This document shows, one piece after another, positions 9,150-38,547 of a stretch of 64,000 nt of DNA. The notes beneath the pieces were generated by a model. It had not been told where the DNA came from. It did not search any database and was given only the letters and a program-made list of their open reading frames with translations. The DNA is from Alphaproteobacteria bacterium (GTDB lineage Bacteria > Pseudomonadota > Alphaproteobacteria > JAEULC01): NCBI GenBank assembly GCA_023150455.1, contig JAKLKW010000010.1, positions 1 through 64,000 of the forward strand, given 5' to 3'. The stretch's first letter is position 1, and every line of letters starts with the position of its first letter. A program made the position numbers and the translations under genes.

Positions 9150-9623
9150 TCACGCGCTCTTCTTCAGCGCCGGCGCCTCGGCGCCGACCGGATGCTGGCT
9201 GCGCAGGCCGATGGCGAGCCGGTTCCACAGGTTGATGAGGCCGATCAGCACGGTCAGGTTGGTCAGCTCGTCGTCCTTGAAGTGCTGGCGCACCTCGGCG
9301 AACACGTCGTCGGGCGCGTGCGTCTCGGCGATCAGGGTCAGCGCCTCGGCCCAGGCGAGCGCCGCGCGCTCGCGCGGGCTGTAGACCGGCGGCTCGCGCC
9401 AGGCGTTCAGCAGGTAGATGCGCTGCTCGGTCTCGCCGTCCTTGCGCATGTCCTTGCTGTGCATGTCCAGGCAATAGGCGCAGCCGTTGATCTGCGAGGC
9501 CCGCATCTTCACCAGCTCGATCAGGCTCATCTCCAGGCCGCAGCCGCGGATGTAGGTCTCGACGCCGACCACGGCCTGGTAGGCGCCGGGAGCGGCTTTG
9601 GGGGCATTGATGCGTGCCTGCAT
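9150..9623 (-). CDS. Carboxymuconolactone decarboxylase / AhpD-like family protein
   Basis: 157 residues. The AhpD core motif is intact: C48-A-Y-C51 followed by H55 (CAYCLDMH), which supports a peroxidase-type thiol function rather than lactone decarboxylation. AAGGAGAGA lies just upstream of the ATG at 9623 and fixes that start; a longer in-frame reading would run into the regulator promoter. The cupin gene follows directly. The divergent MocR-type gene 103 bases away is the likely regulator, a common genomic pairing. Confidence 0.92.
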   Translation of the reverse strand: MQARINAPKAAPGAYQAVVGVETYIRGCGLEMSLIELVKMRASQINGCAYCLDMHSKDMRKDGETEQRIYLLNAWREPPVYSPRERAALAWAEALTLIAETHAPDDVFAEVRQHFKDDELTNLTVLIGLINLWNRLAIGLRSQHPVGAEAPALKKSA

Positions 9624-9676
9624 GGCCGTCTCTCCTTCGGGTTCCTGTCTTGCGATGGGCAGGAGCTTGGCCGCAT

Positions 9677-9722
9677 CTTGGCCTAGAATATAGGGCCAAG
9701 ACTTGCTCAAACGACTAGGCCA
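9677..9722. promoter_or_regulatory. Probable MocR operator between the AhpD-like and MocR genes
   Basis: The divergent intergenic region holds CTTGGCC (9677-9683) and its exact inverse GGCCAAG (9694-9700), separated by 10 AT-rich bases. A third related half-site, TAGGCCA, follows at 9716-9722, just before the MocR ATG. MocR regulators typically bind a pair of repeats plus a third box next to their own promoter. The assignment is inferred from position and symmetry. Confidence 0.55.
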
Positions 9723-9726
9723 TATC

Positions 9727-11142
9727 ATGTCCAAGGCCGACCTCGTCCTGGACCGGCGCAGCGACGTGCCGTTCCACCGCCAGATCTACGAGCGCGTGCG
9801 CGACGCGATCGCGCGCGGCACGCTCAACCCGGGCGACCGGCTGCCGTCGGCGCGCAGCCTGGCCAACCAGCTCGGCACGGCGCGCGGCACGGTCGATACC
9901 GCCTATGCCGTGCTGGCCGGCGAGGGGTACATCGTCGCCCGCGGCGCCGCCGGCACGATCGTGGCGCCGGCGCTCAAGTCGCCGGCGATCGCGGCGCTGC
10001 AGGCGAAGCCGACTGCCGTGCCGCGCCTGCTGGACTCGCCGGTCGACATCGCGCCGGGCACGGTGATGCCGTTCCAGATGGGCCTGCCGGCGCTCGACGC
10101 CTTCCCGCGCAAGCTATGGACGCGGCTGGCGGCGCGCCACGCGCGCCACCTGTCGCCGGCGACGATGGCCTACACGGATGGCGCGGGACACGCGCCATTG
10201 CGCGCGGCGGTCATGCGCTACCTGGCGGTGGCGCGCGGCATCGTCTGCACGCCGAACCAGGTCCTGTTGACGGCGGGCTATCACGGCGCGGTCGGCCTGA
10301 TCAGCCGCAGCCTGCTCGATCCCGGCGACCGGGTCTGGTTCGAGGATCCCGGATTCCACCTGGCGCGGCGGTCGCTCGAGATGGCCGGCGCGCGCATCGT
10401 GCCGGTGCCGGTCGACGGCGACGGCATCGACGTCGGCGCCGGCATCGAGCGCGCGCGGCGGGCGCGCTTCGCCGTGGTCACGCCGTCGCACCAGATGCCG
10501 CTCGGCGTGGCGCTCAGCCTGTCGCGGCGGCTGGCGCTGCTGGCCTGGGCACGCGACGCCGGCGCCTGGATCATCGAGGACGATTACGACAGCGAGTACC
10601 GCTACACCGGCCGGCCGCTGCCGGCGCTCAAGAGCCTGGATCGCGACGGGCGCGTGCTCTATGTCGGCACGTTCAGCAAGGTGCTGTTCCCCGGCCTCAG
10701 GCTCGGCTACCTGGTCGTGCCGGAAGACCAGGCGCGCCGCTTCGCCGCCGTCGCGGGCGCGCTGCAGCCCGACCGTGCGGCGCTGGTCGAGGCCACCGTC
10801 GCCGACTTCATGCGCGAAGGGCATTTCGCGCGCCACATCAGGCGGATGCGCGCGCTCTATGCCGAGCGCCGGCTGGCGCTGGCCCGTGCGCTCGACGCGG
10901 TCTTCGCCGGGCGGCTGAAGATCGGACTCGGCGCCGGTGGCATGCATCTCATGGCCCGCCTCGACGGCGACGACGACGTCACGGCGGTGGGCAAGGCCTT
11001 GTCCTACGTGCTCGCGCCCGAGGCGCTGTCGCGCATGGCGATCGAGGCCGATTGCGGCCGGGCGCTGCTGCTGAGCTTCACGAACATTCCCGCGCAGCAG
11101 GCGCAGGCGCAGGCACGGCGGCTCAAGGAGGCGATCGGTTAG
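9727..11142 (+). CDS. MocR-type transcriptional regulator (GntR wHTH fused to aminotransferase domain)
   Basis: 471 residues. The N-terminal GntR winged helix (~1-75) includes [20 protein letters not shown] fold-type I aminotransferase-like domain follows (~110-470), with the PLP-binding lysine in [15 protein letters not shown] (K318) and [10 protein letters not shown] upstream. MocR proteins sense PLP or its adducts and control a neighbouring gene, here most likely the divergent AhpD-like/cupin pair. ATG 9727 is preferred over a TTG at 9703, which would overlap the operator. Confidence 0.93.
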
Positions 11143-27947: not shown

Positions 27948-28586
27948 ATGGCCGAGTACCGACCGATCACCTTCTATCACGCGCCGCAATCGCGCGCGAT
28001 CATCGTGCATTGGATGCTGGAGGAGCTGGAGATTCCCTATCAGCTCCGCGTCTTGAACCTGCGGAAGGGCGAGAACAAGCGCGCCAGCTTCCTGGCCATC
28101 AACCCGATGGGCAAAGTGCCGGCGATCACGCACGGCGACGTCGCCGTCACCGAGACGGCGGCGATCTGCTGCTACCTGGCCGACGCCTTTCCCCAGGCCG
28201 GCCTCGCGATCGCGGTCGGCGATCCGCGCCGCGGCCCTTATCTCAAATGGCTGTTCTTCGCCGTCTCCACGTTGGAGCCGGCACTGACGGACCGCATGTA
28301 CAAGCGCGAGCCGATCGCGCCCGTGGCGGCCTCGTACGGCGATTTCGACCACCTGCTGGGGGTCGTCGCCAACGCGGTCACGGTAGGGCCGTACCTGTTC
28401 GGGCAGACCTTCACCGCTGCCGACGTGATGCTGGGGGCGGAGCTGCAATGGGGCATGATGACCGGCGCCCTGCCCGCGCGCCCCGAGATCACCGCCTATG
28501 TCGACCGGCTGAAGCAGCGCCCCGCGCTGGCGCGAGTCTACGCCAAGGATGCCGAGCTGGTCGCCGCCGGCTACGCTTCGGCTTGA
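27948..28586 (+). CDS. Glutathione S-transferase family protein
   Basis: 212 residues. The N-terminal thioredoxin-like domain begins ITFYHAPQSRAIIVHWMLEEL, where Ser in the PQS segment is the probable glutathione-activating residue. NPMGKVPAITHGD (cis-Pro) and ETAAICCYLAD are the glutathione-binding loops. The C-terminal helical domain has FTAADVMLG. GGGGGCGGGG precedes the ATG. The substrate is unknown. Confidence 0.92.
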   Translation: MAEYRPITFYHAPQSRAIIVHWMLEELEIPYQLRVLNLRKGENKRASFLAINPMGKVPAITHGDVAVTETAAICCYLADAFPQAGLAIAVGDPRRGPYLKWLFFAVSTLEPALTDRMYKREPIAPVAASYGDFDHLLGVVANAVTVGPYLFGQTFTAADVMLGAELQWGMMTGALPARPEITAYVDRLKQRPALARVYAKDAELVAAGYASA

Positions 28587-28629
28587 TCCCCCGTCGGCAT
28601 GAACCGCGCCCGCCCGGCGCCGCGCGGGC

Positions 28630-30309
28630 CTAGCGGACGAGGGCGACGTCGCGGCCGACGAGCCACCGGAGGGCGAAGTGGAACGCCAGCAGCGCAGCGC
28701 CGACCACCGCCATGATGCAGACGGAGAAGGCCGCGGCCTGGTTCTGGTTGCCGGAATCGTCGAGCAGCAGCACCGAGACGGCCGCAAGCTGGGTCTCGGG
28801 CGTGATCAGGAAGATCACGGCGGACAGCGTCACCATGCTGCGCACGAAGAAGAACACGACGACGCTGGCGACGGTCGGCCAGATGATCGGCAAGGTGACC
28901 CGCGCGAGCGTCCGCAGCAGCCCGCCGCCCAGCACCGCCGACGCTTCGTCGAAGACGCGGCTGATCTGGTTGACGCTCGTCGTGGCGACCAGGAAACCCT
29001 GGGCGTGATAGTGGTAGACGTTGCAGATCGCCAGGATCAGCAGGGTGCCGTAGAGGAAATGCAGCGGGTGCGCCGGGTCGTTGAAGGCCAGGATGTAGCC
29101 GAGCCCCAGCACCATTCCCGGCACCGCCGCGGGCAGGATCGACAGGAAGTAGAGCGCCTGCGCCGCCCATGGGCCGAGACGGCGCAGGACGCAGGCGGCG
29201 GCCACCGTGACCGCCATGCCGATGCCGGCCGCCATGAGCGAGACATGGATGCTGGTCCACAGCGGCTCGATGCCGTTCTGCACCTCGAACCGATAATGGC
29301 GCAGGCTGAGATGCAGGTTGTAGGGCCATAGCGTCACGAAGCTGGCGAGGAACACGATGCCGATGATCGACAGGATCGCGCCGCACACGACGAGCGAATA
29401 GGCGAAGGCCACGCGGTCGGCGACGCGGTGCGGGCGCACCGTCAGCGGCTGCGACCTGTCGCCGATCACGGCGAAGCTCCGCCGGGACACGAGCTTCTCG
29501 ACGACCACCGCGAGCGCCGCCGGAATCAGCAGAACGACGCCGATCACCGCGCCCATCTCGAAGTTCGCCTGGCCGGAAACCTGGTTGTAGATCTCGGTCG
29601 CGAGCACGTTGTAGTCGGCGCCGATCACCATCGGATTGCCGAAATCGGTGATGACGATCGTGAACACGACGAAGCATGCCGACATGAGGCCGTACTTGGT
29701 GGCCGGCAGCGTGACCGTGCGGAACACGCGCAAAGGGCCGGCGCCGAGCATCTGCGCCGATTCGTAGATGCGTGCGTCGGCTACCGCCAGCGCCGCCGAG
29801 AGGATCAGATAGGCGTGCGGGAAGCTGTAGAGCACATCGGCGATGACGATGCCCCAGAACCCGTAGACGTCGATGCCGAGGTCGAAAGCCCGGTTGATCA
29901 AGCCGTTGCGCCCGAGCAGGAACAGGATGCCGAGCGCCTGCACCAGCGAGGGTGCGAACAGCGGCAGCAGCGCGATCAGCCCGAAGACCGTCTTCCAGCG
30001 CATGGCGGTGCGATGCATCGCATAGGCGAAGCCGTAGGCCAGCACGACGGTGATGACCGTCGCGCAGGCCGAAACGACCAGGCTGTTCGCGATCACGCGC
30101 GAGAATTTCGGCGTCTGGAAGTAGCGCACGTAGTTGCCCAGGCCGAACCCGTCGGGGGTGGCGAAGCTGAGCATCAGGATGTCGGCCAGCGGCACCAGGA
30201 CGAACAGGAAGAGGGGGACGGCGACGGCGGCCGCCAGTGCAAAGGTGACGAGGCGGTCGCTGTCGAGCCGCCAGGCGGACGCGGACGCGCCGGCGGACGG
30301 CGTGATCAC
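28630..30309 (-). CDS. ABC transporter permease, two fused permease units (Fe3+/2-aminoethylphosphonate class)
   Basis: 559 residues with about twelve membrane helices in two homologous halves. Each half has an EAA loop for the ATPase: QMLGAGPLRVFRTVTLP in the first and ASAVLGGGLLRTLARVTLP in the second. This double-length form is known from iron(III) (FbpB) and putative 2-aminoethylphosphonate transporters. The GTG start overlaps the ATPase stop by 4 bases (GTGA). It is the last gene of the six-gene locus beginning at 35413. The substrate is inferred to be a phosphorylated small molecule. Confidence 0.88.
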   Translation of the reverse strand: MITPSAGASASAWRLDSDRLVTFALAAAVAVPLFLFVLVPLADILMLSFATPDGFGLGNYVRYFQTPKFSRVIANSLVVSACATVITVVLAYGFAYAMHRTAMRWKTVFGLIALLPLFAPSLVQALGILFLLGRNGLINRAFDLGIDVYGFWGIVIADVLYSFPHAYLILSAALAVADARIYESAQMLGAGPLRVFRTVTLPATKYGLMSACFVVFTIVITDFGNPMVIGADYNVLATEIYNQVSGQANFEMGAVIGVVLLIPAALAVVVEKLVSRRSFAVIGDRSQPLTVRPHRVADRVAFAYSLVVCGAILSIIGIVFLASFVTLWPYNLHLSLRHYRFEVQNGIEPLWTSIHVSLMAAGIGMAVTVAAACVLRRLGPWAAQALYFLSILPAAVPGMVLGLGYILAFNDPAHPLHFLYGTLLILAICNVYHYHAQGFLVATTSVNQISRVFDEASAVLGGGLLRTLARVTLPIIWPTVASVVVFFFVRSMVTLSAVIFLITPETQLAAVSVLLLDDSGNQNQAAAFSVCIMAVVGAALLAFHFALRWLVGRDVALVR

Positions 30310-31352
30310 GGCGGGGCGCCCCGGATCCGGTGCACGCTCTGCGGCGGGATGCGCACGGCCAGCGTCGCGCCAGGCACGGCGTTCGCGGGCTTGCCGCGCA
30401 GCTCGACCACCAGGCGCTGGTCGCCCGCGCGCAGCGTCAGCCGGGTGACGCTGCCGAGGAACACCGATTTCTCGATGCGGCCGACGATCGCGTCGGCACC
30501 GGCAGCGGCGCCGTCGATCAGCTCGAGATGCTCCGGCCGCACGCCGATCAGGCCGGCTTCGCCGGCGGAACCGAAGCCGCTCAGCACATTCATCCGGCCG
30601 ATGAACTCGGCCACGAAGCGGTTGGCCGGCTGCTCGTACAGCTCCTCCGCGCGGCCGATCTGCTCGATCACGCCTTGGTTCATCAGGACGATGCGGTCGG
30701 CCAGCTCCATCGCCTCGTCCTGGTCGTGCGTGACCATGACGGTGGTGATGCGGAGCGCGCGCTGCAGGTCGCGGATCTCGCCGCGCAGCTCCTCGCGCAC
30801 CTTGGCGTCGAGGGCCGAGAGCGGCTCGTCCAGCAGCAGCACCTTCGGTTCGGGCGCCAGCGCGCGCGCCAGCGCGACGCGTTGCTGCTGGCCGCCCGAG
30901 AGCTGGTGCGGCAGCTTGTCGCTCTGGTCGGCGAGGTGGACCAGCTCGAGCATGGCGCGCACGCGCTCGTCCTTGCGCGTGCCGCGCCAGCCCCGGCACT
31001 CGAGCCCGTAGGCCACGTTGCGCGCCACGGTCATGTTGGGAAACAGCGAGTAGGACTGGAAGACGACGCCGAAGTTCCGCTGCCGCGCCGGCACGGCGTC
31101 GAGACGCCCTTCCTGGAGGCGGATCTCGCCTTCGTCGGGCGTCTCCAGCCCGGCAATCACGCGCAGGAGCGTGGTCTTGCCGCAGCCCGACGGCCCGAGG
31201 AAGCAGAGGAACTCGCCTTCGGCGATGTCGAGGCTGATGTGGTCGAGCGCGGTGACGTGGCCGAAGCGCTTGGTGATCTGCCTGAGCGAAAGGAACACGT
31301 GCGGGTCCCCGCGACCCGGCTCCGGCGAAGCCGGCGGATGACGCCCCGTCAT
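30306..31352 (-). CDS. ABC transporter ATP-binding protein (Fe3+/2-aminoethylphosphonate/spermidine-type)
   Basis: 348 residues. Walker A is GPSGCGKTT (53-61), the Q-loop is in VVFQSYSLFPNMTV, the ABC signature is LSGGQQQR, Walker B is VLLLDEPLSALD and the switch His is in VTHDQDEA. A C-terminal TOBE-like domain follows (IGVRPEHLELI). The start may be the ATG at 31352 or a GTG at 31298 that would trim an 18-residue Pro-rich lead. It energises the fused permease next to it. Confidence 0.92.
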   Translation of the reverse strand: MTGRHPPASPEPGRGDPHVFLSLRQITKRFGHVTALDHISLDIAEGEFLCFLGPSGCGKTTLLRVIAGLETPDEGEIRLQEGRLDAVPARQRNFGVVFQSYSLFPNMTVARNVAYGLECRGWRGTRKDERVRAMLELVHLADQSDKLPHQLSGGQQQRVALARALAPEPKVLLLDEPLSALDAKVREELRGEIRDLQRALRITTVMVTHDQDEAMELADRIVLMNQGVIEQIGRAEELYEQPANRFVAEFIGRMNVLSGFGSAGEAGLIGVRPEHLELIDGAAAGADAIVGRIEKSVFLGSVTRLTLRAGDQRLVVELRGKPANAVPGATLAVRIPPQSVHRIRGAPP

Positions 31353-31377
31353 CCGCCGAGCTCGCCTGGGCGGAACG

Positions 31378-32391
31378 TCAGCGTTCGATCGACTTCTTCC
31401 ATTCCGCCAGGATACGGTCCTTGTTCTTGGCCGACCAATCGAAATCCATCTTGTAGAGCACGGTCGACACGTCGGCCGGAAGGCCGGCCTTCAAGACCGC
31501 CTCCGTCGGCTTGGCGCCCGGCACAGACGACATCTCGGCGCGCTCGCCGTAGAGCTTGGCGGCGTCCAGCGTCAGCAGCCAGTCGAGGAACTGCTTCGCG
31601 TCGGCCTTGTTCTTCGAGGTCTTCATGAGCGCGCTGACCTCGGTCTCGTAGCCGGCGCCCTCCTTCGGGATCACGAGCTTGACCGGATATCCTTCCATGA
31701 TCTGCTTCACGCCGCTGAAGGCGAAGGACAGCCCGATCGCGAACTCGCCGCTGCTCGCGGCCTTGCAGGGACGCGAGCCGGACTTGATGTACTGGGCGAT
31801 GTTCTTGTCCAGCGCCTTGAGGAACTGCCAGCCCTTCTCCTCGCCCTTCATCTGCAGGATGCTCGAGACCTGCAGGTAGCCGGTGCCCGAGCTCGCCGCG
31901 TTGGGCATGACGATCTGGCCCTTGTACGCCGGATTCAGCAGGTCCTCCCACGAGGCCGGCATCGGCAGGTTGTTCTTCTTCAGGATTTCGGTGTTGACGC
32001 AGAAGCCGGCGAAGTAGCCGGTCGTCGCGAACCAGCGGCCCTGCGGATCCTTGAAGGCGGGATTGACCTTCTCGATGCCTGCCGGCTTGTACGGCTCGGT
32101 CATCTCGAGGATGCGCGGATCGACCATGTTGGTGACCGCCCAGCCCCAGATCACGTCGTGCCGCGGATTGGCCTTCTCCGCCAGCATACGCGCGCCCAGG
32201 TCGCCGGTGGAAAGCCGCAGGATGTTGACCTTGATTCCCGGCTTGGCCTTGTTGAAGGCCGCCAGGTAGACGCGGACGTCGTCTTCCTCGAGCGAGGTGT
32301 AGGCGGTGATGTCGCCTGCCCGCGCCGGGCCGCCCAAGCAGACGATCGCGGCCAGCGCCACGCCGACCAAGAGCTTCAACCGTGCTGACAT
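31378..32391 (-). CDS. Periplasmic binding protein of the Fe3+/2-aminoethylphosphonate ABC transporter class
   Basis: 337 residues. A signal peptide ends near GGPARA, then mature text begins DITAYTSLEEDD, as in AfuA/PhnS-like type 2 binding proteins. VIWGWAVTNMVDP, WFATTGYFAGFCVNTEILKK and NPAYKGQIVMPNAASSGTGY line the expected ligand cleft. The Tyr pair typical of iron binding is not evident, which favours an organophosphate/phosphonate ligand over Fe3+ (inference). GGGGGAG supports the ATG at 32391. A TGTTGT/ACAACA palindrome lies 118 bases upstream. Confidence 0.88.
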   Translation of the reverse strand: MSARLKLLVGVALAAIVCLGGPARAGDITAYTSLEEDDVRVYLAAFNKAKPGIKVNILRLSTGDLGARMLAEKANPRHDVIWGWAVTNMVDPRILEMTEPYKPAGIEKVNPAFKDPQGRWFATTGYFAGFCVNTEILKKNNLPMPASWEDLLNPAYKGQIVMPNAASSGTGYLQVSSILQMKGEEKGWQFLKALDKNIAQYIKSGSRPCKAASSGEFAIGLSFAFSGVKQIMEGYPVKLVIPKEGAGYETEVSALMKTSKNKADAKQFLDWLLTLDAAKLYGERAEMSSVPGAKPTEAVLKAGLPADVSTVLYKMDFDWSAKNKDRILAEWKKSIER

Positions 32392-32508
32392 CGTGATGCT
32401 CCCCCTGTTGTCGGCAGCGCGGCGCGCCGCCGGTGGCCTGCCCATCGCGGCAGGCCGGCGGAACGGCCGCCGTCCCTGGGGTCACGCTAACACGGCTTAC
32501 CTTTCATT

Positions 32509-32527
32509 CACAACAATCAATGTTGTG
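32509..32527. promoter_or_regulatory. Candidate DeoR operator upstream of the transporter genes
   Basis: CACAACA (32509-32515) and its inverse TGTTGTG (32521-32527) flank a 5-base spacer. The site lies between the deoR-type gene and the binding-protein gene. The same TGTTGT/ACAACA core occurs upstream of the enzyme half of the locus at 35441-35476. Shared motif and position suggest binding by the DeoR protein encoded between the two sites. Confidence 0.6.
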
Positions 32528-32564
32528 GTTCCAACCTTTGGCCGGGGTCGCGGTGGTGGTGGTG

Positions 32565-33359
32565 TCAGCGCCGCGCCAGGGTGACCCGTACCTCGGCCGC
32601 GCGCAGCGCGGCGGCGAGCGTGCGCGGCGGCGGCGCATCGCATACCAGTTCGTCGATCCGGTCGAGGGGGCAGACCAGCTCGAACTGCGCCGCGTCGAAC
32701 TTGGAGCTGTCGACCAGCAGCACGGCGCGGTCGGCGCGGTCGAGCATGGCGCGCTTGACCGAACAGGCGAGCGAATCGGCGTCGGTCACGCCGTCGGCCG
32801 CCACGCTGCCGGCGCCGATGAACGCCTTGTTGGCCTTGAAGCGGCGCACGAACTCGACCGCGTCGGTGCCGAAGACCCCGTTCTCGCGCGCCACGAAGTC
32901 GCCCGGGCACATCACGACGCGGCAGCGCGCGCCGGCGCCGACCGCCGTCGCAACCGCCAGGCAGTTGGTGACCACGGTCAGGTGCAGGTTCCGGACGGCA
33001 AGCGCCTGGGCGAAGAAGGTCGTGGTCGAGCCGCAATCGATCATGACCACGTCGCCCGGCTCGACCATCTGCACGGCCGCTTCGGCGATGCGCTCGCGCT
33101 CGGCCTTGCGCGCGCGCCCGCGCGCGCCGATGCCGGGCTCGTCGATCAGCGAGCGCGCCGCGGCGCCGCCATAGGTGCGCTTCAGCGTGCCCTTGCGCGC
33201 CAGCTCGTCGAGGTCGCGGCGCGCGGTCTCGGTGGTGACGCCGAAGGTCCGCGCCATGGTGGCGATGCGCAGGGTGCCGTCGCGCCTGAGCAGCGCCAGG
33301 ATCTGCGCGTGGCGGTCCTCCTGCGAAAGCCGGGACGGTGCCTTGACCTTGCGCGCCAT
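32565..33359 (-). CDS. DeoR/GlpR family transcriptional regulator
   Basis: 264 residues. The N-terminal DeoR helix-turn-helix includes DRHAQILALLRRDGTLRIATMARTF and the recognition segment VTTETARRDLDELARKG (~15-65). The C-terminal sugar-phosphate-sensing domain has GDVVMIDCGSTTTFFAQAL and FIGAGSVAADGV. DeoR proteins respond to phosphorylated sugars or polyols and usually repress neighbouring catabolic genes. It sits in the middle of the six-gene locus between enzymes and transporter, flanked by matching palindromes. Confidence 0.93.
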   Translation of the reverse strand: MARKVKAPSRLSQEDRHAQILALLRRDGTLRIATMARTFGVTTETARRDLDELARKGTLKRTYGGAAARSLIDEPGIGARGRARKAERERIAEAAVQMVEPGDVVMIDCGSTTTFFAQALAVRNLHLTVVTNCLAVATAVGAGARCRVVMCPGDFVARENGVFGTDAVEFVRRFKANKAFIGAGSVAADGVTDADSLACSVKRAMLDRADRAVLLVDSSKFDAAQFELVCPLDRIDELVCDAPPPRTLAAALRAAEVRVTLARR

Positions 33360-33425
33360 GCGGCCTGCTCCGTTGCGATGCGGGCGGCAAGCTAGCCGAT
33401 GCCGCGTGTTTTCTCCACAACGCGC

Positions 33426-34721
33426 TCAGGCCGCCGCCAGCGCGGCCAGGCCGGCGCTGTCGTCGGCCAGATCGAGGAACGTGTAGCGGTCGCGCAGATA
33501 GCGCGCGTGCGCGACGGCATGCGCGTAGAACGCCGGATCGAGGCCGATCTCCGCGGGTGAGCGCGGCGCGCCGGCGCGCGCCAGGGCCCGGTCCAGCCGT
33601 TCCGCCGGCACGCTGACGCGGGTAATCTCGGCACCCGTCTCCGGCCACGATTCCGCCAGGAGACGGCCGAGACCGGCCGCACGCGCGCCGTCGAGACGCT
33701 TGGGCGCGAATTCGCGCCAGCAGGATTCCCCGATGACGGCCCCCAACGCGGCGCACAGGGCTTTCCGGTCCATGCCCGTCGGCACGGGCGCGGGCGCGGG
33801 ACCGGACAGCATTCGTTCCTGGATGCGCGCCATGGTGAGCGTGGCGACGCCGACCTGTTCGCCGTGGAAGCAGGGCGCGCGGCCGGCCGGGGCGAACATG
33901 TCGATGAAATGGCTGATCAGGTGCTCGCCCTGGCTCGCGGGATAGCTGCCGTGGCAGATCGTCATGCCGATCCCCGACAGCAGCAGGGCGCGCGCGAGGT
34001 GGCGCATCGCCTCGACATTGCCCGCGACCAGCGCGTCCGCGTGGTCCAGGAGCACGGGCTCGTCCTCGGCCAGGAGGGCGAAGGGCGACGTGCGGTAGTA
34101 CGTGCCGCGCAGGCGGTGCGACAACAGCCAGTCAGCCTGCGCGGTCGGCCGGCAGAGCGAGTCGCCGAGCCCGGCGCGGATCATGCGCGCCGGGGCGGCG
34201 GCCAGCACTTCCAGGTCCATGAACACGCCGAGCGGCGCGGCGGCGGCGAGCGACTTCTTGTGACCGTCCACCGTGATGGCGGCGTTCATCGAGGCGTAGC
34301 CGTTCATCGACGGCGCGGTCGCGAACACCACATAGGGCTTGCCTGCCTTGGCCGCGGCGTACTTGCACAGGTCGTTGATCGTGCCGGAGCCGACCGCCAC
34401 CAGCGCGTCGTCGGTCGCGGTGTCGCGGCACAGCGCCGTCACGGTTCCCATGTCGGCATGCGGCCGGTCCGGCAGGACGATCGGGCGGACGTCGCCGAGA
34501 CCGCCGAGCGCGCGCTCGACGCGCCCTCCGAGCACGGCCCGCGTCGCCGGATCGGAAACCACCGCGATCCGCCGGCCGAAGCCGAACGGCCGCACCAGCT
34601 CGGCCTCGAGGCCGCGCAGGCTGCGCTCGATCACCAGCGCGGGTAGCGCGACGTCGGGCGGGCGGCCCGTATCCGGGTCCGCCCATCGGCCATGGCTCAG
34701 CCGGTCGAGCAGAAGGTCCAT
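33426..34721 (-). CDS. sn-Glycerol-1-phosphate dehydrogenase-like (AraM/EgsA) iron-containing alcohol dehydrogenase family
   Basis: 431 residues. The dehydroquinate-synthase-like fold is shown by VGSGTINDLCKYAAAKAGKPYVVFATAPSMNGYAS (NAD-binding and active-site loop). Metal ligands are likely the Asp in GLGDSLCR and His residues in EHLISHFIDM and CFHGEQVGV. AraM enzymes interconvert sn-glycerol-1-phosphate and dihydroxyacetone phosphate. The substrate could also be a related polyol phosphate. The ATG at 34721 is 5 bases after the TIM-barrel stop, so the two enzymes are co-translated. Confidence 0.85.
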   Translation of the reverse strand: MDLLLDRLSHGRWADPDTGRPPDVALPALVIERSLRGLEAELVRPFGFGRRIAVVSDPATRAVLGGRVERALGGLGDVRPIVLPDRPHADMGTVTALCRDTATDDALVAVGSGTINDLCKYAAAKAGKPYVVFATAPSMNGYASMNAAITVDGHKKSLAAAAPLGVFMDLEVLAAAPARMIRAGLGDSLCRPTAQADWLLSHRLRGTYYRTSPFALLAEDEPVLLDHADALVAGNVEAMRHLARALLLSGIGMTICHGSYPASQGEHLISHFIDMFAPAGRAPCFHGEQVGVATLTMARIQERMLSGPAPAPVPTGMDRKALCAALGAVIGESCWREFAPKRLDGARAAGLGRLLAESWPETGAEITRVSVPAERLDRALARAGAPRSPAEIGLDPAFYAHAVAHARYLRDRYTFLDLADDSAGLAALAAA

Positions 34722-34726
34722 GCGCC

Positions 34727-35413
34727 TCAGGCCGCGAGCGGCGGCGCGCTGCGGCAGGCGCCGAGGATGTCGGCGATCTGCGCCCTCAGCGATCCCTTGC
34801 GCGGCGAGAACGAGCCGTCGAACGCGGCGGAGCCGATGGTGAACGCGTCGGCGCCGGCGGCGGCGAGCGCGTGGATGCGCGCGGCGGAGTTGACGCTGCC
34901 GGCGACGATCAGCCGGCCGCCGCCCAGGCCGCTCCGGGCCGCGCGCACCAGATCGATCGGGTCGGCGTCGACCGCGCGATAGGCCAGCAGGTCGACCCCG
35001 CCGCAACCCGCTTCCATCCAGGCCCGGCATTGGTCGCTCACCAGCTCAGCCGCGCCCTCGAGCCGGGTCGGATGGCCGACCGGGCGCCCTGGAAACGGAA
35101 AGTAGCGCGAGAGATCTCCGAAGATCCGGCGCGCGGCCGCGCCGTCGGTGCCGCCGAGAACGCGGTCGACGCCGAGCACCTTCGCCGTCGCTAGCGAGCG
35201 CACAACGGCGTCGGGTGTCGTGCTGACGACCTCGAGATAGGAGACGGCGCCGCTGGCGGCAATCCGCCGCGTCAGCGTCTCCATCGTCTCCACCGTCACG
35301 CCCACGTCCTTGAAGCCGACATGGCGCACGCCCGCGTCCAGCACAGTGTCGACCACGTCGAGCGCGTCCTCGACCGTCCGGTCGTCGCGCGTCAGCATGA
35401 AGATGAAGTCCAT
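34727..35413 (-). CDS. TIM-barrel protein with C-terminal phosphate-binding motif, function unknown
   Basis: 228 residues, not assigned to a named family. Alternating strand/helix text such as HVGFKDVGV, YLEVVSTT, VDRVLGGTD, GVDLLAYR and RLIVAGSVN suggests a (beta/alpha)8 barrel. LIVAGSVNSAARIHALAAAGADAFTIGSAAF near the C-terminus looks like the paired phosphate-binding loops of HisA/HisF, TrpF or GGGP-synthase-like enzymes. It could be an aldolase or isomerase acting on a phosphorylated substrate before or after the AraM-like dehydrogenase. It is the first gene of the locus, with operator-like palindromes upstream. Confidence 0.75.
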   Translation of the reverse strand: MDFIFMLTRDDRTVEDALDVVDTVLDAGVRHVGFKDVGVTVETMETLTRRIAASGAVSYLEVVSTTPDAVVRSLATAKVLGVDRVLGGTDGAAARRIFGDLSRYFPFPGRPVGHPTRLEGAAELVSDQCRAWMEAGCGGVDLLAYRAVDADPIDLVRAARSGLGGGRLIVAGSVNSAARIHALAAAGADAFTIGSAAFDGSFSPRKGSLRAQIADILGACRSAPPLAA

Positions 35414-35574: not shown

Positions 35575-38547
35575 TCAGGGCAGCTTCACCGGTCCCGTCG
35601 TGACGACCTTGAGCTTCCAGTCCTCGGCCGGCGTGCCGTTCAGGTTGAGGTGACCGGCGAGGTAGTAGAGCCGGTCCGTGTCGGCGCCCTTTGCGGTGCA
35701 GAAGCGATCCTGCAGGAAGAAGGGCGGGATCGCCTGGTAGTAGAGCGAGGCCTGCACGGCGGCGGGCTTGCCGCCAAGGCCGGCGAGATCGACGCGGTAG
35801 ACGAGCGCGTCACGCCCGCCGTCGCGGTAATCGGGGTCGTCGCCGACCGCGTAGGGACCCGTCTCCGCCGCCAGGTCGTCGCGCGCGCCGAGCACGCGGG
35901 CGATCGCGGCGCGGTCCTCGAGCTTGAGGAAGCCGCTCGGCAGCAGGCGGTTGTCCTTCACGTCGGTGCAGATCGACAGGAAGCTGGTGGTGAGATCGCC
36001 GGCCGGCTGGACGCCGCGCCCGCACTGCGCCGGACCGGTGGCGGGCGGCGCCGCGACCAGCTCCTGGTAGATCTGCGCCTGGTCCTGGCGCGTGATGAGC
36101 TGATAGTGCGGCTGGTGCGGCCGCCGGCCGGGCTGGCGCAGGCCCGAGCAGTCGTCCTTCCACCACAGCTCGCCCGTGACCGGCGCGCCCTTGTCGTCGA
36201 CGATGACGCCGGCGCCGTCGGTGCGGCCCGACGACCACAGCACCTTGCCGCGCTCGTCGAGCACGCTGAACTGCACGAAGGCGCGGCGGAAGCCGACGCC
36301 GGAGGGAAGCTTGTGTCCCGCCTTGTTGGTGACGGTGACGATGGCCTCGAGCGTGCGACCGTCGCTCTTGACGCCGCCGAGCGCGATCGCGGCGGTGGCG
36401 TTCAGCGCCTGGTCGAGCATCGCCTGCTCGGTGTAGAGCAGCGGATCGAGCCCCAGGCTCGCGAGCATCGGATCCTGCGTGCGGATGCCGAGCACGTCGG
36501 GGAACTGCTGCGCCATCTTGATGAAGAACAGGTTCAGGCCGACCAGCGTGTGCTTGGCGAAGCCCTCGCGCACGGGCAGGTCGATGTCGCCGGGCCCGAG
36601 GTTGTTCTCGGCCTGGGGGAAGGTGCTGTACTCCTGGATGCCGGCGATCTTGCTGCGGAAGGGCTTGCCGGACGCGTCGCGGCTGGGCATGTGGCAGTCC
36701 TGGCAGGACTGCGCGAGCGCGCCGGGACCGAACGGCAGCGGACCGTCGGGCGAGGTGCCGGTACGGTAGGCGCTGAACGCCCATTCCGGATAGGTCGTCT
36801 GCTCGTAGACATGGCCGATCACCTGGCCCTCCCGCAAGATCGGCAGGTGCACGGTGTGGCAGGTGCCGCACAGCTCGGACTGCTTCACGTTGGCATAGTG
36901 CTGCGGCGTGATGCCGAGCGCGTTCTGCATCGGCTTCGGCTTCGGCTTCTCGAACGGGCCGTTGAGCCGCTCGGGCTCGCCGACCAGGAAGCTGCCGGTG
37001 AAGGTGCGCGCGAAGCCTGTCTCGCCCGGATTGAGGAACTGCTGGCGCTCCGCGACGCAGCGGTTCTGCGGCTCGTCCTTGAACTTCTCGGTGTCGGCCT
37101 TGCCCAGCACCATGTGGTGGCACGCGGCGCAGGAGATGCCGTCGCGCGCCAGCGCGCCGTACTTGGCCAGCGCCGCCGTCGGGTTGCCGTCCGGCCAGGG
37201 CACGGCGTTCGCGGTCTCGCGCAGGAACGGCGTGCAGGCGTTCGACGGGCCGACGCGGTCGATGTGGAACTGCCGCTGTCCCAGCACGCCGTGACAGCCG
37301 AGGCAGACGTCCTGCACCACGGCGGAGAACTCGGGATGGAAGCGCTGCGTCTCGCTGGCGAGCTGCGCGTAGAAGATCGGATCGCGCCCGCCGAGGCCCA
37401 TCGGCGAGGTGCGCCACGAGCTGTAGGGCGAGTGGTTGAGGAGCTTGCCGCCGGTCGTGGGCTCCGTCATGTCGAATTGCAGGCCCGTGCCGCCGGCGTC
37501 GTGGCAGCCGAGGCACTGGTCCGAGGTCACGAACTGGCTTGCCGGCTTCGGTCCGTGCGCCGCGACCCAGACGTTGTCGTAGGTCTGCGATGGCAGATTG
37601 ACGACGCTTCCCGTCGTCGGAGCGATCGGGCTGCCTGGCTTGCGCGAAGCGGTGAAGCCCGGATTGTAGGCGGAAAGCGGCCGTTGCCCCTGGTAGGTGG
37701 GGTCGTCCGAGGTGTCGCCGACCTTCTCGTGGTGGCTCTTTCCTGGCGCGTTCTGGAACGACGTGTCCTGCGGGAAATTCTGGATCAGGAAGACCAGCGG
37801 CTGGCCCGGCTCGCCTTTGATGTTGCTGAGGCTGGCGAAGGTCTGGTTGTTCGCGGCCGATGCGTGGCAGTTGGTGCAGTACTGGCCGAAGCCCATGTTG
37901 GGGTAGGGATTGCCCTTCGCCGCCGGCCAGTCCGGCGCCCAGCCGCTCCAGCCGAACCAGCCCCAGAACCAGCCATCCTGCGACGCCCCGCGATCGCGCA
38001 CCATGACCGCGGCGCCGCTGCTCGGCTGCAGGTACGCGGGATCGACGCTGGCGCAGGCTGCGGCGGGGTACGAGTACATCTCTTTGATGATGATGCTGCC
38101 GTCCGGGACGGGCCGGGGCTCAGCCGGCGCCGCGCCGCCGGCCGGGCGGTTCGCCTTGAGCCAGGCGTACATCTCCTTCGAGTACCAGACGATCACCGGC
38201 GCATGCGTGCCGTAGCCGATGCCCGACCACGCGCCACCGGCGAGCGTGGCGATGAATGGTCCGGTGTCGCGGATGCGCTTGTCGGTTTTCCAGCCCGCGT
38301 CCGGATCACGGTGGCAGTAGTTGCGCAGATAGCGCCCGAGCTGCGCCTCGTACTGGTCGAGCGGCAGGGCCGACGGCTTGCGCACGATCGGGTCGAGCGC
38401 GGCGCAAAGCGCGGGATTGGTGGGAAGCTGCGGCGTGTCCTGCTGTGCCGGACACAGCGCCGACGCCAGCGCGGCCGGCACCATGCCGGGCAGGGCGAGC
38501 GCGACGATCAGGGCGCGCAAGGTGGCCGGCCGAAGGACATCCATCAT
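35575..38547 (-). CDS. Secreted multihaem cytochrome with N-terminal cytochrome P460-like domain
   Basis: 990 residues with a signal peptide (1-~31, ALASA). Six CXXCH motifs start at C224, C345, C415, C473, C560 and C615. The first closes a P460-like domain (~80-235): PDGSIIIKEMY, MVRDRGASQDGWFWGWFGW and QYCTNCHASAANNQTF align by eye with cytochrome P460, and K155 falls where the haem-cross-linking lysine sits in that family. P460 enzymes oxidise hydroxylamine. Residues ~340-620 form a c554-like haem chain. The rest contains the KHTLVGLNLFF and NKAGHKLPSGVGFRRAF segments seen in other multihaem cytochromes. GGGGGGAA precedes the ATG. The assembly as a hydroxylamine- or NO-linked oxidoreductase is inferred; no partner gene is adjacent. 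Confidence 0.82.
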   Translation of the reverse strand: MMDVLRPATLRALIVALALPGMVPAALASALCPAQQDTPQLPTNPALCAALDPIVRKPSALPLDQYEAQLGRYLRNYCHRDPDAGWKTDKRIRDTGPFIATLAGGAWSGIGYGTHAPVIVWYSKEMYAWLKANRPAGGAAPAEPRPVPDGSIIIKEMYSYPAAACASVDPAYLQPSSGAAVMVRDRGASQDGWFWGWFGWSGWAPDWPAAKGNPYPNMGFGQYCTNCHASAANNQTFASLSNIKGEPGQPLVFLIQNFPQDTSFQNAPGKSHHEKVGDTSDDPTYQGQRPLSAYNPGFTASRKPGSPIAPTTGSVVNLPSQTYDNVWVAAHGPKPASQFVTSDQCLGCHDAGGTGLQFDMTEPTTGGKLLNHSPYSSWRTSPMGLGGRDPIFYAQLASETQRFHPEFSAVVQDVCLGCHGVLGQRQFHIDRVGPSNACTPFLRETANAVPWPDGNPTAALAKYGALARDGISCAACHHMVLGKADTEKFKDEPQNRCVAERQQFLNPGETGFARTFTGSFLVGEPERLNGPFEKPKPKPMQNALGITPQHYANVKQSELCGTCHTVHLPILREGQVIGHVYEQTTYPEWAFSAYRTGTSPDGPLPFGPGALAQSCQDCHMPSRDASGKPFRSKIAGIQEYSTFPQAENNLGPGDIDLPVREGFAKHTLVGLNLFFIKMAQQFPDVLGIRTQDPMLASLGLDPLLYTEQAMLDQALNATAAIALGGVKSDGRTLEAIVTVTNKAGHKLPSGVGFRRAFVQFSVLDERGKVLWSSGRTDGAGVIVDDKGAPVTGELWWKDDCSGLRQPGRRPHQPHYQLITRQDQAQIYQELVAAPPATGPAQCGRGVQPAGDLTTSFLSICTDVKDNRLLPSGFLKLEDRAAIARVLGARDDLAAETGPYAVGDDPDYRDGGRDALVYRVDLAGLGGKPAAVQASLYYQAIPPFFLQDRFCTAKGADTDRLYYLAGHLNLNGTPAEDWKLKVVTTGPVKLP

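Follow-up and report, generated by a model that had tools for sequence, protein, structure and literature searches.

A cytochrome P460-fold domain joined to a pentahaem module in a secreted six-haem protein family found in several bacterial phyla

The known cytochromes P460 carry one haem and depend on a separate electron acceptor. The enzymes in which a P460 cofactor is joined to a relay of their own are, to our knowledge, the octahaem enzymes of the hydroxylamine oxidoreductase (HAO) type. Two residues are required in the P460s that oxidise hydroxylamine: a Lys and a distal carboxylate (Glu96 or Asp102), the latter being the proton acceptor of the active enzymes (PMC11928373, Table 2). The NsP460 protein of Nitrosomonas AL212, which has Ala at the carboxylate slot, is inactive and acquires activity when this Ala is replaced by Glu (PMC11928373); it is still called a P460, and the carboxylate marks the active subset of P460s only. 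In NeP460, the cross-link to the haem is lost in the R44A variant (PMC11928373). A study of cable bacteria has related the pentahaem cytochrome c552 to the pentahaem PHC family, in which some proteins carry a fused truncated haemoglobin and are proposed to be oxygen reductases (PMC11976967).

The gene described here lies in a 64,000-nucleotide stretch of an alphaproteobacterial genome (contig JAKLKW010000010.1, positions 1 to 64,000; hereafter the window), where it occupies the minus strand, with its ATG at 38547 and its stop at 35575, and encodes 990 residues (Table 1). Its product is best explained as a redox enzyme of the P460 type that has its own wiring and acts on a small N or O species, a reading to which we give a probability of about one half. 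The six CXXCH motifs that a preliminary description of the sequence had placed behind a signal peptide are all present, the leader being of the Sec type, and the lysine that it had picked out in the segment PDGSIIIKE is indeed residue 155 of the translation.

Table 1. Positions in the window of the gene and of the features of its product
Feature	Position	Strand	Basis
Whole gene, encoding a secreted c-type cytochrome of 990 aa with six haems (P460 domain, pentahaem module and C-terminal beta domain)	35575..38547	-	ORF, full-length relatives
N-terminal leader, aa 1-30 (hydrophobic, Sec-type signal peptide by eye)	38458..38547	-	Sequence; model confidence low here
Cytochrome P460-fold domain, ~aa 86-245	37813..38292	-	PF16694 aa 145-235, McP460 profile matches, hhalign, Foldseek (weak)
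K155, on McP460 haem-cross-linking Lys78	38083..38085	-	Alignment; Lys in 77/77
H115, invariant (77/77); at most one residue from McP460 Gln46/Asn47	38203..38205	-	Alignment
A180, catalytic carboxylate position (McP460 Asp102, NeP460 Glu96, NsP460 Ala131)	38008..38010	-	Alignment, PMC11928373 Table 2
Haem 1 motif CTNCH, aa 224-228 (P460 haem)	37864..37878	-	Sequence
Haem 2 motif CLGCH, aa 345-349	37501..37515	-	Sequence
Haem 3 motif CLGCH, aa 415-419	37291..37305	-	Sequence
Haem 4 motif CAACH, aa 473-477	37117..37131	-	Sequence
Haem 5 motif CGTCH, aa 560-564	36856..36870	-	Sequence
Haem 6 motif CQDCH, aa 615-619	36691..36705	-	Sequence
Pentahaem module, ~aa 321-718, T. tepidum c552 / PHC fold	36394..37587	-	Foldseek and PDB profile matches to 5ze8
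C-terminal domain rich in beta structure, aa 719-990; its GHxxPSGVGFRR motif is similar to one in 5ze8	35578..36393	-	Profile, model, conservation

The N-terminal part of the protein is a true cytochrome P460-fold domain. The Pfam model PF16694 (Cytochrome_P460) matches residues 145-235 with 30.1 bits (E = 7e-7), above its curated cut-off of 27, and also matches 33 of 35 N-terminal domains of the fused family. When the PDB is searched with a profile of the domain, the McP460 chains solved there are recovered (E = 4e-6 to 6e-6) and K155 is placed on Lys78; comparison of the profile by hhalign with eight Lys-bearing P460s gives an E-value of 2.4e-11. The match is not an artefact of the CXXCH motif, since it survives removal of that motif (24.8 bits, E = 3e-5, slightly below the cut-off). 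The model of the isolated domain (pLDDT 89.8) has the NsP460 chains of Nitrosomonas AL212 as its best Foldseek matches, and these are weak (E = 0.17, TM-score about 0.44 on the target). Of the stretch that had been read by eye as P460, residues ~80-235, the part from 145 to 235 is thus confirmed by Pfam, whereas residues 80-145 lie outside the Pfam match and are placed in the domain by the structure model and by the profile alignment of the strand at ~112-122. Like NeP460, McP460 and NsP460, the domain has the P460 fold, a single CXXCH near its end and a Lys at the cross-link position; unlike these small monohaem proteins, it sits in a six-haem chain.

The remainder of the protein resembles a pentahaem cytochrome. 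An AlphaFold2 model built from 59 sequences has a mean pLDDT of 90.4 and a pTM of 0.91, values that support a single docked unit in which the relative placement of the predicted domains is confident. A Foldseek comparison of the whole model with the PDB gives one significant match (E = 3e-9, with a TM-score of 0.64 by target length), namely 5ze8, the pentahaem cytochrome c552 of Thermochromatium tepidum; the PDB profile search also recovers this structure (E = 1e-6). The likeness extends to the five haem motifs, to the c552 fold and to a beta-rich C-terminal part that carries a motif of the H..P.G..FR type and gives a profile match to residues 291-337 of 5ze8, although the protein is larger than c552 and, unlike it, has an N-terminal P460 haem domain. 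Kinship with the PHC family (ExtKL, Gsu2801 and the sPHC and lPHC of cable bacteria) follows by way of 5ze8 and the published relationship (PMC11976967), not by direct comparison. The cable-bacteria fusions of lPHC with truncated haemoglobin (lPHCtX) likewise join a pentahaem module to a ligand-binding haem domain, but the partner domain is a b-type globin in those proteins and a c-type P460 fold in this one. The general idea of a special haem served by a multihaem relay in a single chain is shared with HAO, which differs in being octahaem, in its Tyr link and in its unrelated fold; the present protein has six CXXCH motifs, and neither Pfam nor NCBIfam gives it a match to the HAO family. A relationship of its pentahaem part to HAO or NrfA was rejected, as no family match above cut-off was obtained in Pfam or NCBIfam and the fold search led to c552 only. 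The combination of a P460 domain and a five-haem module in one secreted protein, which was the central claim of the preliminary description, is therefore upheld by PF16694, the McP460 profile, the fold match to 5ze8 and the AlphaFold model.

A scan of GTDB genomes yielded 188 relatives, of which the best 80 were kept, most of them full length; the alignment of 76 relatives with the query retains the six haem motifs bar rare cases. The family spans at least six phyla in a scattered manner, with members in Pseudomonadota, Acidobacteriota, Planctomycetota, Myxococcota, Bacteroidota and Vulcanimicrobiota and a patchy tree. In a set of 386 alphaproteobacterial genomes, about 12 contain strong matches to the pentahaem part, nearly all of these lying in frames of ~900-1100 codons, and all eight strong matches to the P460 subfamily among 398 Pseudomonadota genomes sit in frames of ~1000-1080 codons, so that the two parts travel together whichever of them is used for the search. 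This near-universal coupling is established, as are the domains and the six haem motifs. Distant pentahaem relatives that lack the P460 domain do exist, for instance in Sulfurovum. One full-length member is borne on a plasmid and is annotated as a 'hypothetical protein'. A broken-looking copy, in pieces and with internal stops, is found in another genome of the same class (G037, contig C14, 97537-98801), which suggests that the gene can be lost. The copy in a record titled Mycobacterium sp. KBS0706 (L014, NZ_VCCH02000089) nests with Inquilinus limosus, which is likely explained by wrong naming or mixing of the record or by recent transfer of the gene. A search of the open-licence literature returned no paper on a P460-multihaem fusion, and a literature search returned neither a characterised homologue with another function nor biochemical data on a family member; to judge from the literature covered, the protein is apparently an undescribed combination of two known families.

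The haem pocket of the P460 domain combines residues in an unusual way. K155 aligns exactly with the cross-linking Lys78 of McP460, as had been proposed, and the position is Lys in 77 of 77 aligned sequences (the query and 76 relatives). Other P460-fold proteins from related genomes keep this Lys in just 7 of 17 cases, one of the exceptions (L139) having Met instead; relatedness inflates this contrast, which nevertheless makes the Lys look actively retained in the fused proteins. H115, K155, W193 and the CXXCH motif are invariant within an otherwise variable P460 domain. The carboxylate slot is occupied by A180, an assignment that places McP460 Asp102 on A180 and is anchored by McP460 Met104 on M182, the conserved Met two residues past the slot being a feature shared with McP460. 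Ala (41) or Thr (33) fills this slot in 74 of 77 sequences, with Asp in two and Val in one; loss of the canonical carboxylate is established, as is the invariance of the Lys. The slot of the distal Arg (Arg50 in McP460, Arg44 in NeP460) falls on V118 or I119 and is hydrophobic here, and H115 (77/77) probably lies on the strand that corresponds to the one lining the distal pocket of McP460 (PMC6427953); for both H115 and 118/119 the equivalence with McP460 is uncertain by one residue, depending on whether spacing or hhalign is followed. With Ala in the carboxylate slot, a hydrophobic Arg slot and an invariant His on the pocket strand, the pocket, as judged from sequence, matches neither the active P460s nor the cytochromes c'-beta. 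The latter (McCP-beta and NeCP-beta) belong to the same fold superfamily and likewise have no distal carboxylate, but they are without the Lys that is found throughout the present family.

These residues bear directly on whether the protein is a true hydroxylamine oxidase, in which the P460 haem would oxidise hydroxylamine to NO or N2O, the fused wire taking up the electrons. An invariant Lys where the cross-link would form and the ready electron exit would suit such an enzyme, and two planctomycete members (L052, 8118-10934; L056, 4230-7016) have Asp at the position of McP460 Asp102, the first of them with Arg at 119 as well, which makes them the strongest candidates in the family for genuine oxidation of hydroxylamine. 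We regard this explanation as quite unlikely: the carboxylate slot holds Ala or Thr in 74 of the 77 sequences, and the Ala-bearing NsP460 works only with Glu in its place (PMC11928373). Searches of the bacterium's own genome for ammonia monooxygenase (AMO) and multihaem HAO also gave no match, a weak point given that the controls gave no match either. Hydroxylamine oxidation by the known P460 route, which the preliminary description had envisaged, is hence not expected of this copy, because Ala180 replaces the carboxylate as in inactive NsP460; the distal Arg slot is hydrophobic in addition.

The pocket could instead serve a reductive or gas-binding protein, with a P460 domain resembling c'-beta or a peroxidase and with the pentahaem part supplying electrons that reduce bound NO, peroxide or O2. 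His115 together with an Arg at 119 would recall the His/Arg pair of peroxidases, and Arg 119 is present in 34 of 77 sequences, being the most frequent residue at this site in the distant clade; NeCP-beta, which has a distal Arg, shows peroxidase-like activity (PMC11928373), and the truncated-haemoglobin fusions offer a further parallel as proposed oxygen reductases (PMC11976967). Yet the Lys that c'-beta proteins have lost is invariant here, and the present copy has Ile119 and no Arg 119, at a site whose placement is uncertain by one position, so that we consider this explanation unlikely.

Conservation is distributed unevenly along the chain. Positions conserved at 99% or more number 42 of 330 in residues 321-650 and 30 of 270 in residues 721-990, as compared with 8 of 160 in the P460 domain (residues 86-245), and altogether 76 (42 + 4 + 30) of the 84 such positions fall in residues 321-990, among them H666, H745, R388, D389 and K864. 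The pentahaem part, being more densely conserved than the P460 domain, may be more than a passive wire, a term that would then undersell it, and by analogy with lPHC and sPHC, both suspected of having five-coordinate haems (PMC11976967), it may contain a second open haem. Taken further, these observations could mean that the catalytic site lies in the pentahaem or C-terminal part and that haem 1 acts only in electron entry or exit, perhaps with His115 as a ligand. This appears improbable to us, as haem packing alone predicts a conserved pentahaem core and a plain electron-transfer haem gives no clear reason for an invariant Lys at the cross-link position.

The genomic context names no pathway. 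Upstream in the window is a gene resembling TPR/glycosyltransferase 41 proteins, and the genes downstream, on the same strand, encode a 228-aa protein of no recognised class, a protein resembling glycerol-1-phosphate dehydrogenase, a DeoR regulator and an ABC transporter of the aminoethylphosphonate type. Across about 77 loci the only recurrent neighbours were shared within a single genus or were transporters and dehydrogenases of generic kinds. A link to the downstream genes resembling aminoethylphosphonate transport was considered and rejected, since the association is not conserved. The downstream set (28571-35413, minus strand) is in itself an odd combination for a bacterium, and the 228-aa protein (34727-35413, minus strand) has no match in Pfam or NCBIfam.

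Other P460-fold proteins were also encountered in these genomes. The same genome encodes a second one on contig C69 (L003, ~9400-10250, minus strand), which is of the cytochrome c'-beta type with Met in place of the Lys, has NeCP-beta (7s5o) as its best PDB match (E = 3e-18) and carries a fused cytochrome c domain with one haem. Fusions of this c'-beta/cytochrome c type occur also in two genomes of the same genus (L136, L138) and in one other genome (L137). A further P460 subgroup (L140, L141, L142 and L144) has the motif HGxRYVxNYxN and keeps the Lys, and in L140, L142 and L144 the P460 part is preceded by N-terminal Cys-rich repeats of the NPCAAK or ACGACGAKK type.

On the reading that we prefer, a self-wired redox enzyme, the protein would be a periplasmic six-haem enzyme in which a P460-fold domain, packed against a c552/PHC-type pentahaem module, uses its one c haem to bind a small N- or O-containing ligand such as NO, hydroxylamine or peroxide. 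Haem 1 would have an open distal site, would probably be modified by a covalent bond to K155 and would be the place of catalysis, with the invariant His115 as the best candidate for a replacement acid-base, and electrons would pass between this haem and an external partner within one polypeptide. The cable-bacteria fusions provide a precedent for a PHC-type module joined to a ligand-binding haem domain (PMC11976967). Counting against this self-wired enzyme are the weak Foldseek result for the isolated domain, the hydrophobic residues V118 and I119 and the want of a neighbour that names a pathway.

A more far-reaching version, which we regard as possible but doubtful, is that the family constitutes a widespread new class of self-wired P460 oxidoreductases, in which an invariant distal His would replace the carboxylate and which would act on small N/O species in many bacteria not known as nitrifiers, the planctomycete members retaining both of the residues, Lys and carboxylate, that the hydroxylamine oxidases have. 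The natural variation between Ala, Thr and Asp at the carboxylate slot, occurring within one conserved architecture, makes the role of this residue directly testable. A multi-phylum family that combines P460 with a pentahaem relay would be a second self-relayed P460 design, present in organisms not thought to be nitrifiers, and could matter for the turnover of NO, N2O or hydroxylamine.
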